A program made the translations under genes and the position numbers. Positions 5,344-9,231 of a DNA stretch of 50,989 bases are shown piece by piece. Source of the stretch: a virus; IMG/VR virus record IMGVR_UViG_3300005290_000006, positions 76,360 through 127,348 of that record. One strand, given 5' to 3'. The notes under the pieces are model-generated. The model saw only the letters and a list, made by a program, of their open reading frames with translations. It was not told the DNA's origin and made no database searches. The stretch's first letter is position 1; every line of letters begins with the position of its first letter.

Positions 5344-5386
5344 TGGGGCATTACCTGGCTGTCAATTAAAAAGGGAACATAGCATA

Positions 5387-6283
5387 ATGGCTACCAAAAA
5401 CTCTTCGCTGCGTGCTAACAAACAAGTTAAACGCCAGAAACGCGCCAAGCAAAAGCAGGCCGCTATCCGTAAGGAACAGGCCGTCACCAAACAGATGCTC
5501 GGTCGTAAGGCCATGGAAAAGGAGTTGTTCGGTAATGTCTCCGACAACGACATCCTGCAACAAGCTCACCGCCGTCTGAAGCAGCTGAAGAAGAAAGCTC
5601 GCCAGGGCAAGATCAGTCAGAAAGAATTCGAAGAGCAGATCGCTGGCCACGAAGAGATCACCAACACCGTCGTCATGCAGAACATCAACGACGTGATCCC
5701 GGCGCTGATCCGTGTGCACTCCGGCGTTGAAGTGTTCAGCCGCCTGGCCGCTGAAAAGCGCTTCGAAGTAACCGCCGAAGAAAACACCCTCATCAATACC
5801 CTCGATGAGCAGGTCGTTCACATCACCGAAGACATCTCGGCGATCGTATCGTTCGTGGAAGACAAGAAGGAGCCTGATGACTACATGGCGATCTTCATGC
5901 ACTACACCGAACTGTTGGCACGTTGCTTCGAAGTGACCATGCCGGCGCTGATGCTCATGCTCGATGCGAAGAAGCCTGAGATCGACGCGTACGCCGACGA
6001 GCATCGCAACAAAGAACTGCCGGTGTTCGAATACATGCGCGGTCTGCATGAAGAACGTATGCGTGTTGTGGTTCCGATCTACCGCACCCGCACTTCGCCG
6101 ATCGAAGGCATCGTTGAAGAAGCCAAGCACAGTTACACCCCGGAAAACCCAATGCCAAGCGATCCGATCATCGACAGCGATGTGGCAGAAGCGGTGCTGG
6201 CGGAAACCCCAAACCTGGAACAAGACGTCCTCGCCGGCGACAGCGAACATCCTTTGTCCAGCGACGTCGTTTCTAACGTCTGA
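5387..6283 (+). CDS. Probable virion structural protein, basic coiled-coil N-terminus
   Basis: Start at ATG 5387, with AAGGGA about ten bases upstream; the open frame from 5279 is antisense to the divergent gene. The 298-residue product starts with a strongly basic helix (residues 1-45, rich in K, R and Q, including KRQKRAKQKQ), continues as a charged helical region and ends with an acidic disordered tail. The basic start could bind nucleic acid or a partner shell. Highly regular codon use and position before 6311, 28 bases downstream, point to an abundant late protein. Function not recognised. Confidence 0.7.
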   Translation: MATKNSSLRANKQVKRQKRAKQKQAAIRKEQAVTKQMLGRKAMEKELFGNVSDNDILQQAHRRLKQLKKKARQGKISQKEFEEQIAGHEEITNTVVMQNINDVIPALIRVHSGVEVFSRLAAEKRFEVTAEENTLINTLDEQVVHITEDISAIVSFVEDKKEPDDYMAIFMHYTELLARCFEVTMPALMLMLDAKKPEIDAYADEHRNKELPVFEYMRGLHEERMRVVVPIYRTRTSPIEGIVEEAKHSYTPENPMPSDPIIDSDVAEAVLAETPNLEQDVLAGDSEHPLSSDVVSNV

Positions 6284-6310
6284 AATCCCTCTGTTAAGGA
6301 AAGGTAATCC

Positions 6311-8026
6311 ATGAGCGAACAAGAGAATACGCCCGCCGGTACCACTGGTGAACCGGGGGCTACCTCTGCTCCAGTAACCCCGTCTGCACCGGTTGTGGAA
6401 GCAGCCTTTGCCGACAAACACACCGCTTTGAACACCCCCATGAAGAAGATTCTTCCTTCGGTCTCGGAACTCATTCGTCCGGGTACTGAAGAAGACCGCG
6501 GCAATGGTTACCTGCCAATCTTCCTGGGTAACACGCCGTCGACTCATAAGGCGGCAAATGACCTGCTGTCCAAGTGGCTGCAACTCACCGCCATGAAGAG
6601 CCTGTTGGAAGAAGGCCGGGCTACTGACTCGATGTTCGCTTCTACCAAGAACGAATGGGACCAGCACATCGCCGCCAACTTCCCTGGCAAGACCTCGGCC
6701 GAAATGGAATCGATGAGTGGTGATCTTTACCGCTTCATGGAAGAGTACGTCGACAACATCAAGATCCGTTCCAAGGTCATGAATGAAGACGGCGTCACTA
6801 ACGTCCATGACCGTGGCAGCGACATCATCGGTGGTGACATCACCGGTAAGAAACCTTCGCGTTCCACCAAGGGTTTCAGTGTCTCTGAGATCATGCGTCG
6901 TTCGGCCATGCGTGCTGAAGACGGTGAGTTCCAGTTCGACGTGCTGCTCCGTGACTCGTTCTGCATGCTGACGTTCACTCGTCCAAGCAAGCTGGACCTG
7001 GCTGGCCTGGTCAACGACATCAACCGTACTGTGCGTGGTTACGTGCGTACCGTCGGTGGCAACAGCATTACCCTGGCGTACATCGCCGGCATGCGTGTGG
7101 TCTGGGACTTCCTGTCTCAGCGCATCGTGAGCAGCAGTGTTACCGGCATCAGCGACTTCAAGGATCTGGTGAAGGTTATCCGGATCACTGACTTCGGTAC
7201 CATCTGCATGGCGTTGATCCGCGCTACGCACAACAACGGCATCAACCTGGAACTGCGCTGCTTGAACAACAAGTGCGACTGGTCTGACTTCCAGGTGGCT
7301 GACCCGGACAAGATGGTGCGTGTGCGTCACTCCATCGAAACCGAAGCAGAGTCGGCGATCTACGCCAACATCTACAACGGCAACGAGAAGTACAGCATCA
7401 CCGAAACCCTGAAGATGATCGGTGAATCGAAGTACGGCCTGGAAACCGATCGGGTTTACAACGCCGACAAGTCGATCTACTTCAAGGTGGCGCCGTGCTC
7501 CATGGCCGAAGCTTTCGAAACGTTCGACTTCTACGCCGGCCGCGTCAACCCGCAGCTGCAAGAAATCCGCTCCAAGGTGACCGATCCAAAGGAATACGAA
7601 TCTCAGGTTGCGATTCTGCTGACCACCCTGGGTTCGACCGAGTTCCTGCACTGGATCGCCAGCTACGTGTCGGTTGCCCCGCCTAACACCGACGGCGAAG
7701 ACATCGTGCTGAACCGTGCTGAGTGCGAAGCCGGTGAGTTCAACAAGGGTGCGATGGAAGTGATCCTGGACAGCAAGGTGTTGAACAAAACGCTGTCCTC
7801 GTTCATCCTAAACAAAACGCCATTCATGTCGCGTACTTTCGTTGGGGTGGCTAACTACCAGTGCCCTAAATGTAAAGAGCGCATGGAATCGTTCCACGAC
7901 GAAGATCGCAAGATGGGTTACACCCCTATCGACCCGTTCATGGCTTTTTTTACCCTCACCCAGTTGAAGCTGATGACTCAAGCGGCGGAAGCGGCCGAAG
8001 CAACCCAAGAAGCCATCTCGAACTAG
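6311..8026 (+). CDS. Zinc-ribbon-like virion or assembly protein with a -1 frameshift site near its end
   Basis: A 571-residue protein with a proline/threonine/alanine-rich first 40 residues and a mixed helical body. Two cysteine pairs, C317-x4-C322 (RCLNNKCDW) and C518-x2-C521 (YQCPKCKERM), could form one zinc site. At codons 545-547 (GCT TTT TTT, 7943-7951) there is an in-phase T_TTT_TTT heptamer; the normal frame then ends 24 residues later at TAG 8024. The -1 frame is open through the next gene to 8469, predicting a 719-residue fusion. This is the arrangement of tail assembly chaperones (lambda G/GT) in many tailed phages, and a baseplate/tail assembly role is my inference. The gene starts after TAAGGAAAGG. 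Confidence 0.8.
   Translation: MSEQENTPAGTTGEPGATSAPVTPSAPVVEAAFADKHTALNTPMKKILPSVSELIRPGTEEDRGNGYLPIFLGNTPSTHKAANDLLSKWLQLTAMKSLLEEGRATDSMFASTKNEWDQHIAANFPGKTSAEMESMSGDLYRFMEEYVDNIKIRSKVMNEDGVTNVHDRGSDIIGGDITGKKPSRSTKGFSVSEIMRRSAMRAEDGEFQFDVLLRDSFCMLTFTRPSKLDLAGLVNDINRTVRGYVRTVGGNSITLAYIAGMRVVWDFLSQRIVSSSVTGISDFKDLVKVIRITDFGTICMALIRATHNNGINLELRCLNNKCDWSDFQVADPDKMVRVRHSIETEAESAIYANIYNGNEKYSITETLKMIGESKYGLETDRVYNADKSIYFKVAPCSMAEAFETFDFYAGRVNPQLQEIRSKVTDPKEYESQVAILLTTLGSTEFLHWIASYVSVAPPNTDGEDIVLNRAECEAGEFNKGAMEVILDSKVLNKTLSSFILNKTPFMSRTFVGVANYQCPKCKERMESFHDEDRKMGYTPIDPFMAFFTLTQLKLMTQAAEAAEATQEAISN
7945..7951 (+). other. Candidate programmed -1 ribosomal frameshift site (T_TTT_TTT)
   Basis: Seven Ts placed exactly in the X_XXY_YYZ phase relative to the 6311 frame. 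The -1 frame continues from TAC 7951 without a stop to 8469, 172 codons. I found no convincing pseudoknot directly downstream and no strong internal ribosome-binding-like sequence just upstream, so stimulation is unexplained. Confidence 0.7.
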
Positions 8027-8469
8027 AATTCGAGCGACGCTTCAGCGGGGAGTATCGTACAGTAGTTACTAACCTGTTAGGTGTCACGTTAAAGGGTGCA
8101 GACCCAGACGCGATGGCCTTTCAGGAAAGTATGCTGCACGACTTCAACATGGGGTATTACGACCGTTCCACCATGAGTCCTCATTCCTCTGTTGCGTTTA
8201 TCAAAATGGAGAATGGGTTCGTCCACCCGTGGTCAATCAAACATATTGGCAACCAATATGGCTACGGGAAAATGAAGGAGTTAATCCCCCTCAGAGACTA
8301 CTTAACGCTTCCTGCCTTTTTGGTAGACGACTTGGTGGCCGGTATCACTGAAGGTGAAGCGCTTCGGACTAAGCAAGACACTCCGAAAACTGACGACACA
8401 CCTCTCTCCAAAGAGGACCGTGCGTTGTTGGAACTGGCTAAGAAAGCAGGGCTCGGAAAACTGCCGTAA
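7951..8469 (+). CDS. -1 frame extension of the 6311 protein (or separate 118-residue protein from ATG 8113)
   Basis: In the -1 frame from the slippery site, the sequence reads through the 8026 stop and gives a plausible protein well before any ATG: EFERRFSGEYRTVVTNLLGV, then LKGADPDAM, then the part beginning MAFQESMLHDF at ATG 8113. ATG 8113 has no ribosome binding site at normal distance (AAAGGG is about 16 bases away), so it is poorly placed as an independent start. The stretch encoded by 8026-8112 looks protein-like although no start precedes it. The end (LSKEDRALLELAKKAGLGKL) is helical. Best explained as the downstream domain of a frameshift fusion; independent translation from 8113 is the alternative. 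Confidence 0.65.
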   Translation, partial: YPHPVEADDSSGGSGRSNPRSHLELEFERRFSGEYRTVVTNLLGVTLKGADPDAMAFQESMLHDFNMGYYDRSTMSPHSSVAFIKMENGFVHPWSIKHIGNQYGYGKMKELIPLRDYLTLPAFLVDDLVAGITEGEALRTKQDTPKTDDTPLSKEDRALLELAKKAGLGKLP

Positions 8470-8568: not shown

Positions 8569-9231
8569 ATGAGCACTACTAATACGCAAGACTCCAAAGA
8601 TTATACCCCACCTGCCGTTGAAGAGGTTGCACCGGTTTCCGAGAAGGGCGGCGCTGCTCCTGTTGCAACCGTTCAATCGAAACAAACCCCTGCCCCGGCT
8701 AAAGTCGAAGTCGCCCCAGCCAAGATCGCTGAGCCTACCCTGGTTCCGCTGCCGGCTGTGATTGGTGTGAACAAGATCCTCAATGCCAAAGGCACTGTGG
8801 TGACTGACATCATGATCAAGCGCATCGACAAGCACCTGGAATACCTCAACGGTACGGTCGGCTTCAAAGACACCGAAGAGCGTGACGAAGAGCAGGTCAG
8901 CTTCATCGAAACCATCGGCAACTCGCTCAAGATGGACTTCGACGGTTACGTGGTCTTCACCGACTACCTGCTGACCAAGATCCGCGACAACCAGAAAGTC
9001 TTCACCGACGGCCTGGCGTTCCGTTTCTGCGCCGAGCTGAAGAAAGGTTCGTACACCGAAGCGGTCAAGAACTACCAGGCGTACATCGAGTTCCTCACCA
9101 AGATCGCGATCAACTGGAACGTTCGTTACAAGCTGAAGAAGCTCGTCGACACCGCCTACGTGATCCAACCCCTGAATCAGAAGGGCAAGGAAAACGTCAC
9201 CCAGTATTTCAACAAGCTGGCCAGCGTTTAA
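8569..9231 (+). CDS. Probable virion protein with alanine/proline-rich N-terminus
   Basis: A 220-residue protein. The first 60 residues are a low-complexity A/P/V/K region (TPAPAKVEVAPAKIAEPT), probably a flexible arm. The rest is helical with a charged loop KDTEERDEEQ. AAAGGG lies close upstream of the ATG. It sits between the frameshift gene pair and an inner-body-like gene, and has the highly regular codon use (GAC, AAG, CTG) of an abundant late product. No family recognised. Confidence 0.65.
   Translation: MSTTNTQDSKDYTPPAVEEVAPVSEKGGAAPVATVQSKQTPAPAKVEVAPAKIAEPTLVPLPAVIGVNKILNAKGTVVTDIMIKRIDKHLEYLNGTVGFKDTEERDEEQVSFIETIGNSLKMDFDGYVVFTDYLLTKIRDNQKVFTDGLAFRFCAELKKGSYTEAVKNYQAYIEFLTKIAINWNVRYKLKKLVDTAYVIQPLNQKGKENVTQYFNKLASV

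Follow-up and report, generated by a model that had tools for sequence, protein, structure and literature searches.

A conserved slippery site points to programmed -1 frameshifting in a probable tail assembly chaperone gene of phiKZ-type jumbo phages

Two open reading frames on the plus strand of the window, a 50,989-nucleotide stretch of the IMG/VR virus record IMGVR_UViG_3300005290_000006 (positions 76,360 to 127,348), appear to constitute a single gene with programmed -1 frameshifting, and the resulting product pair is most likely a tail assembly chaperone (TAC). The upstream frame (6311..8026) encodes a TAC-N-like short form of 571 residues, a homologue of phiKZ gp77, EL ORF047 and PhiPA3 gp74 (phrog_4585). 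The downstream frame (8113..8469, plus strand) would be a separate gene of 118 residues to a gene caller. phiKZ-type phages are among the leading models of giant and nucleus-forming phages, and our searches of the open literature found neither a report of this frameshift in these phages nor an identified tail chaperone for them. The proposed frameshift would correct the gene models of the whole superfamily, in which a core protein pair had been read as two hypothetical genes.

Slippery site and predicted products

The upstream gene carries the heptamer T_TTT_TTT at 7945..7951 (plus strand), which encodes F546-F547. Because codons 545-548 of the 6311-8026 CDS are split as GCT (7943-5), TTT (7946-8), TTT (7949-51) and ACC, the seven-T run lies in the X_XXY_YYZ phase of this CDS, and the codon reading confirms both the position and the phase given in the first-pass annotation. 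The -1 frame opens at 7876, 69 nt ahead of the T run, and remains open to the stop codon at 8467-8469, running into the 8113 frame as that annotation had claimed. It contains no ATG, GTG or TTG ahead of the 0-frame stop in the window. The product sizes that had been predicted are also correct, with 571 residues in the absence of a shift and 719 residues (547 + 172) with a shift. The 172-residue -1 extension (7951..8469, plus strand; YPHPVEADD...GLGKLP; phrog_19747/24181) forms the C-terminal part of the 719-residue product. It reads YPHPVEADDSSGGSGRSNPRSHLELEFERRFSGEYRTVVTNLLGV... after the slip and ends at the stop at 8469, and its predicted tryptic peptides in the window phage include SHLELEFER and TVVTNLLGVTLK.

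The 133-kb record contains four runs of at least seven T, and the slippery site is the only run of exactly seven. The other runs, of 8-9 T, are located at G000:C1 60567-60575, 79440-79448 and 28558-28565.

Conservation of the site and the -1 frame

The junction was compared at 113 loci, which comprise 20 phages of a first set (including EL, RisingSun, OBP and Miami), five further phages in which the junction was read (phiKZ, pEa_SNUABM_54, DT01, PhiPA3 and pEa_SNUABM_43) and 88 IMG/VR loci; about 107 loci remain once IMG/VR copies of the same isolates are removed. These loci cover EL-, RisingSun-, OBP-, Miami-, Vibrio/Aeromonas-, phiKZ-, PhiPA3- and 201phi2-1-type jumbo phages together with IMG/VR contigs. 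At all 113 loci, TTT followed by TTT, TTC or (once) TTG occupies one codon pair near the end of the upstream protein. The pair encodes Phe-Phe (Phe-Leu once) within the motif DPxMxFF, IDMLSTFF or VDIGYVFF. An open -1 frame of 151-183 residues follows the site at every locus save contig L040, which is cut off early. TTT is preceded by T except at ~13 loci with G or A, which belong to PhiPA3-like phages and some related contigs. In tblastn searches, the 0-frame protein matches 69 phage records and the -1 extension 28, and in most of these 28 records, including those of EL, RisingSun, FishSpeaker and Miami, the extension match starts at the first post-slip residue.

The expectation of the first-pass annotation that homologues keep the heptamer and the open -1 frame thus holds across the 113 loci, and a separate, well-started downstream gene with no slippery site is seen at none of them. 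The same annotation suggested that a zinc-ribbon-bearing frameshift protein would, if confirmed, be a new form for a phiKZ-type phage. The form is not special to the window phage but general across the phiKZ-type superfamily, phiKZ included.

In the record of Pseudomonas phage vB_PQ1 (PQ516283), the locus and its neighbours are annotated as many small ORFs, which look like the result of indel sequencing errors; the slippery site is intact. Such broken frames could suggest that the two-frame layout itself is an artefact of sequencing or the mark of an indel in a decaying gene. However, the 113 loci at which the layout recurs come from many different sequencing projects, a degree of conservation that refutes this explanation, and the -1 part is under purifying selection. 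Its probability is therefore negligible.

The codons at the site are strongly biased. In the window gene, TTT is used at three of 27 Phe codons (11%), and two of these three form the slippery site. All homologues chosen as representatives (42/42) use TTT for the first Phe of the site, against a mean TTT usage of 0.26 in the genes, whereas none of the 24 other Phe-Phe pairs of those genes starts with TTT. The difference between 42/42 and 0/24 gives a Fisher p of 1.6e-18, a value that is not corrected for the relatedness of the sequences; the homologues share descent, and the site counts are not independent events. TTT is likewise the first site codon in 57 of 57 additional loci. The residue ahead of the Phe pair is variable (A, S, N, T or V), with T as the third base in 39 of 42 representatives. 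The homologous proteins diverge to about 13-17% identity, and at such distances the site would not have survived under silent drift alone. Given the biased Phe codons of the heptamer and the rarity of T runs in the 133-kb record, the heptamer is not a chance occurrence. From these features of the DNA, we infer that ribosomes slip at the site in the cell, and programmed -1 frameshifting at 7945-7951 is almost certain.

Slippage of the RNA polymerase on the T run, which would add an extra U to some mRNAs, could produce the same fusion. Phages of this family carry multisubunit RNA polymerases of their own, and some stuttering could occur on a seven-T run. However, efficient transcriptional slippage in bacteria usually requires longer runs. 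Runs of only six T occur in about half of the homologues (TTTTTTC, GTTTTTT and one TTTTTTG), and runs of five in another three (GTTTTTC). Furthermore, the codon phase is identical at all of these sites, which would be unnecessary if the polymerase were slipping. The many five- and six-T sites and the fixed phase speak against polymerase slippage, which we regard as very improbable.

No conserved downstream RNA structure was detected in 39 loci (mean z 0.04), and an upstream SD-like stimulator is absent in all but one of the 39. Such stimulators usually accompany programmed frameshifting and do not define it, and this lack of a stimulatory structure or SD-like element is a gap and not a refutation of ribosomal frameshifting. 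In E. coli constructs, U_UUU_UUU is reported to be less shifty than A_AAA_AAG (PMC5009743).

Downstream start codons and selection on the -1 frame

The two frames are shown as two genes in the annotated records, and such an arrangement would require the downstream ORF to be translated from its own ATG at 8113 or 8131, with the T run being incidental. As the first-pass annotation noted, no SD-like motif precedes ATG 8113 at a normal distance. The next ATG, at 8131, is preceded by an SD-like motif (CAGGAAAGT-ATG), and some internally started C-terminal fragment could arise there in addition to the fusion; this start is not conserved. ATG 8113 itself is missing from 72%-identical relatives, as had been anticipated. 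A -1-frame start codon ahead of the 0-frame stop is absent in 36 of the 42 representatives, and the first start past the stop lies at scattered positions among the relatives, mostly without an SD-like motif. The -1 frame nevertheless stays open over 157-183 residues. No start codon is common to the relatives, and conserved protein is encoded ahead of every possible start. Since the starts chosen by annotators lie at non-homologous places and mostly lack an SD-like motif, a separate downstream gene is very unlikely, and the retention of the site with biased codon usage in 113 loci also contradicts an incidental T run.

In the window phage, the AGGA at good spacing from ATG 8131 could support the initiation of a 112-residue C-terminal fragment.

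The segment between the 0-frame stop and ATG 8113 (8027..8112, plus strand) can be translated in the -1 frame via the frameshift only. Over the 87 nt past the 0-frame stop, most of the compared pairs of relatives have a -1-frame dN/dS well below 1 (for example, dN 0.12 and dS 2.12, or dN 0.26 and dS 1.60), and the contrast is weaker in a few pairs. This 87-nt stretch is located mostly ahead of any annotated start. The 8026-8112 part, which looked like real protein to the first-pass annotation, lacks a conserved start and is under purifying selection in the relatives' -1 frame.

phiKZ counterpart

In phiKZ (AF399011, 66000-74500), the slip would join PHIKZ077 (533 residues) to PHIKZ076.4, and the first possible start of the -1 frame occurs 85 codons past the slip. 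Judged from the sequence, the two annotated genes PHIKZ077 and PHIKZ076.4 appear to form a single gene with a frameshift, whose product would read ...LSTFF|YFGG across the junction. PHIKZ077 was identified as the true phiKZ counterpart by a profile search, and it carries no 'structural' note in AF399011. PHIKZ082/082.1, a candidate by position, is the DNA polymerase and has no such site. As annotated, PHIKZ076.4 is missing ~85 codons of the conserved upstream frame. Peptides that span the two frames could be searched for in existing phiKZ proteomics.

Several records (L001, L019 and L020) label the 0-frame gene as a 'putative ZipA-like cell division protein'; we saw no support for this name in our analysis.

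Relationship to T4-like gp26 and other tail assembly chaperones

The protein has the layout CxxxxC...CPxC...FF-slip-helical extension. The first Cys pair (C317/C322, 7259..7276, plus strand) and the second Cys pair (C518-P-x-C521, 7862..7873, plus strand), which is 24 residues ahead of the slip, are both invariant and may constitute a split zinc ribbon. The remark of the first-pass annotation on a zinc ribbon is therefore reasonable on the basis of these four Cys residues. Modelling with AlphaFold2 gave a confident structure for the short form (pLDDT 86); the model of the -1 extension is poor (pLDDT 65). In a Foldseek search, the short form matches phiKZ-type homologues and then a single T4-like 'Baseplate hub assembly protein' (probability 1.00, E 9e-3, target TM 0.49), and the next matches have a probability of 0.07. 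A profile of 28 phiKZ-type proteins compared with a gp26/gp51-type profile scores 27.4, and the best of 150 column-shuffled controls reaches 24.6. The profile alignment places the C..C pair, CPKC and FF in register, and its formal hhalign probability is low. The hhalign comparison is uninformative with a three-sequence T4 profile and better with about 80 cyanophage sequences. Two genome records also call relatives T4 gp26-like.

Other searches gave negative results. Pfam has no family for either part, and the PF12322 model does not detect the short form. Searches for PF12322 in the genome that contains the window, in phiKZ and in contig L021 gave no match, although two of the three do not prove absence. 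Fold and sequence searches of the PDB returned no relative, and a profile comparison of the -1 extension with its T4-type counterpart gave no match (P 0.15).

T4 genes 26 (short) and 51 (long) were reportedly proposed as TAC-N and TAC-NC by Vladimirov et al. in 2022. Both T4 proteins belong to PF12322, and gp51 is the longer one. The T4-like gp26/gp51 system (PF12322, phrog_150) resembles the window gene in having short and long forms with a common N-terminal part, and T4 gp26 contains Cys pairs at matching places, CPxC and an FF near its end, as does the window protein. The FF of T4 gene 26 is encoded by TTC TTT without a slippery heptamer, as is expected from the two-gene arrangement. T4 thus uses two genes and no frameshift, whereas a frameshift is predicted for the phiKZ-type gene.

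Cyanophage gp26 has an in-phase T run at the FF and a -1 extension, as in the phiKZ-type gene. In P-SSM2 gp26 (L073, 1465-2380), the terminal FF is encoded by an in-phase T_TTT_TTC and is followed by a 60-residue -1 extension that contains YSLTELENMMPWEREIYLALLQQYIEEE. The extension lies directly upstream of a long ORF, probably the tape measure. The in-phase T_TTT_TTC at the C-terminal FF and the subsequent -1 extension of ~60 residues are kept in 80 of 80 related cyanophage contigs (L076-L155). The window gene therefore represents the same layout at a larger scale. Its phiKZ-type family has N-terminal parts of 467-684 residues, compared with 208-243 residues in the T4-like and cyanophage gp26 systems, and extensions of 151-183 residues, compared with ~60 residues in cyanophage gp26. 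In addition, the phiKZ-type gene, unlike its T4-like and cyanophage counterparts, does not adjoin a tape-measure gene and is missed by the Pfam model. According to PMC10885494 and PMC12846349, Vladimirov, Gautam and Davidson (Virology 2022, 566:9-15) identified the chaperones that assemble the tails of T4-like phages.

Similar arrangements occur in other phage families. In Pakpunavirus and Vandenendeviridae, a GTTTTT slip at the end of TAC-N resembles the T run described here, and every genome has a -1 frame that continues without a stop across 'intergenic' DNA; unlike the present gene, this TAC is located upstream of the tape-measure gene (PMC12846349). As in lambda gpG/gpGT and other systems of the Xu-Hendrix-Duda type, a -1 shift near the end of the upstream ORF would generate a minor long form. 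The lambda slippery site is G_GGA_AAG, and gpG has ~140 residues. Virions do not contain lambda G and GT (PMC5009743), to which the non-structural Churi homologue of phiKZ gp77 is comparable.

The similarity to T4-like gp26 in structure and profile, together with the cyanophage gp26 site, lends independent support to the tail assembly chaperone reading that the first-pass annotation had raised. The phiKZ-type pair is likely to work like the T4-type chaperone pair, on the grounds of distant similarity rather than formal membership in PF12322.

Gene context and proposed function

The gene is flanked by RNA polymerase beta subunit and DNA polymerase genes, with no adjoining tape-measure gene. A position just upstream of the tape-measure gene is usual for a TAC and is not defining. 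The upstream neighbour (5387..6283, plus strand; 298 residues, phrog_28183) is conserved and occupies the same place as phiKZ gp78 and PhiPA3 gp75, and the downstream neighbour (8569..9231, plus strand; 220 residues, phrog_14374) is conserved as well. Churi gp256, the homologue of phiKZ gp77, is expressed, was detected 15 min after infection, is non-structural and is not among the growth-inhibiting proteins (PMC11849849). These properties fit a non-virion protein.

The frameshift may be real and its product something other than a tail chaperone, namely another non-virion assembly or early protein that is linked, for example, to the adjoining virion RNA polymerase genes. Such a role would suit the synteny with polymerase genes rather than tail genes, the 15-min detection of the Churi homologue, which is early for a tail protein, and the weakness of the sequence link to PF12322. 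However, it would leave aside the similarity to T4-like gp26 in Foldseek and profile comparisons, and the layout of Cys pairs, FF, slip and extension that is common to the T4-like gp26 family, and we consider it rather unlikely. If frameshifting occurs, a tail assembly chaperone role is highly probable on the grounds of distant similarity. We infer this role, as the most likely one, from the anatomy of the gene and its link to T4-like gp26/gp51.

In the chaperone mechanism that we propose, most ribosomes would finish the 571-residue protein. A fraction would slip at T_TTT_TTT, where both Phe-tRNAs would re-pair one base back, and would then read the -1 frame to yield the 719-residue protein with its 172-residue, mostly helical C-terminal domain. 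The abundant short form may coat the tape-measure protein, and the rare long form may recruit the tail-tube protein. On a broader scale, phiKZ-type jumbo phages, including phiKZ with PHIKZ077 and PHIKZ076.4 as one gene, probably make a hitherto unrecognised T4-gp26-like tail assembly chaperone pair of unusually large size through -1 frameshifting at a single conserved site, and the T4 gene pair 26 and 51 would replace a shared ancestral frameshift. This proposal would give the hypothetical pair a candidate function and connect the machinery of tail assembly in phiKZ-type phages with that of T4-type phages.

A 761-residue antisense open frame also covers the locus on the minus strand (5366-7651 of the window) and is probably a by-product of the codon bias of the coding strand.
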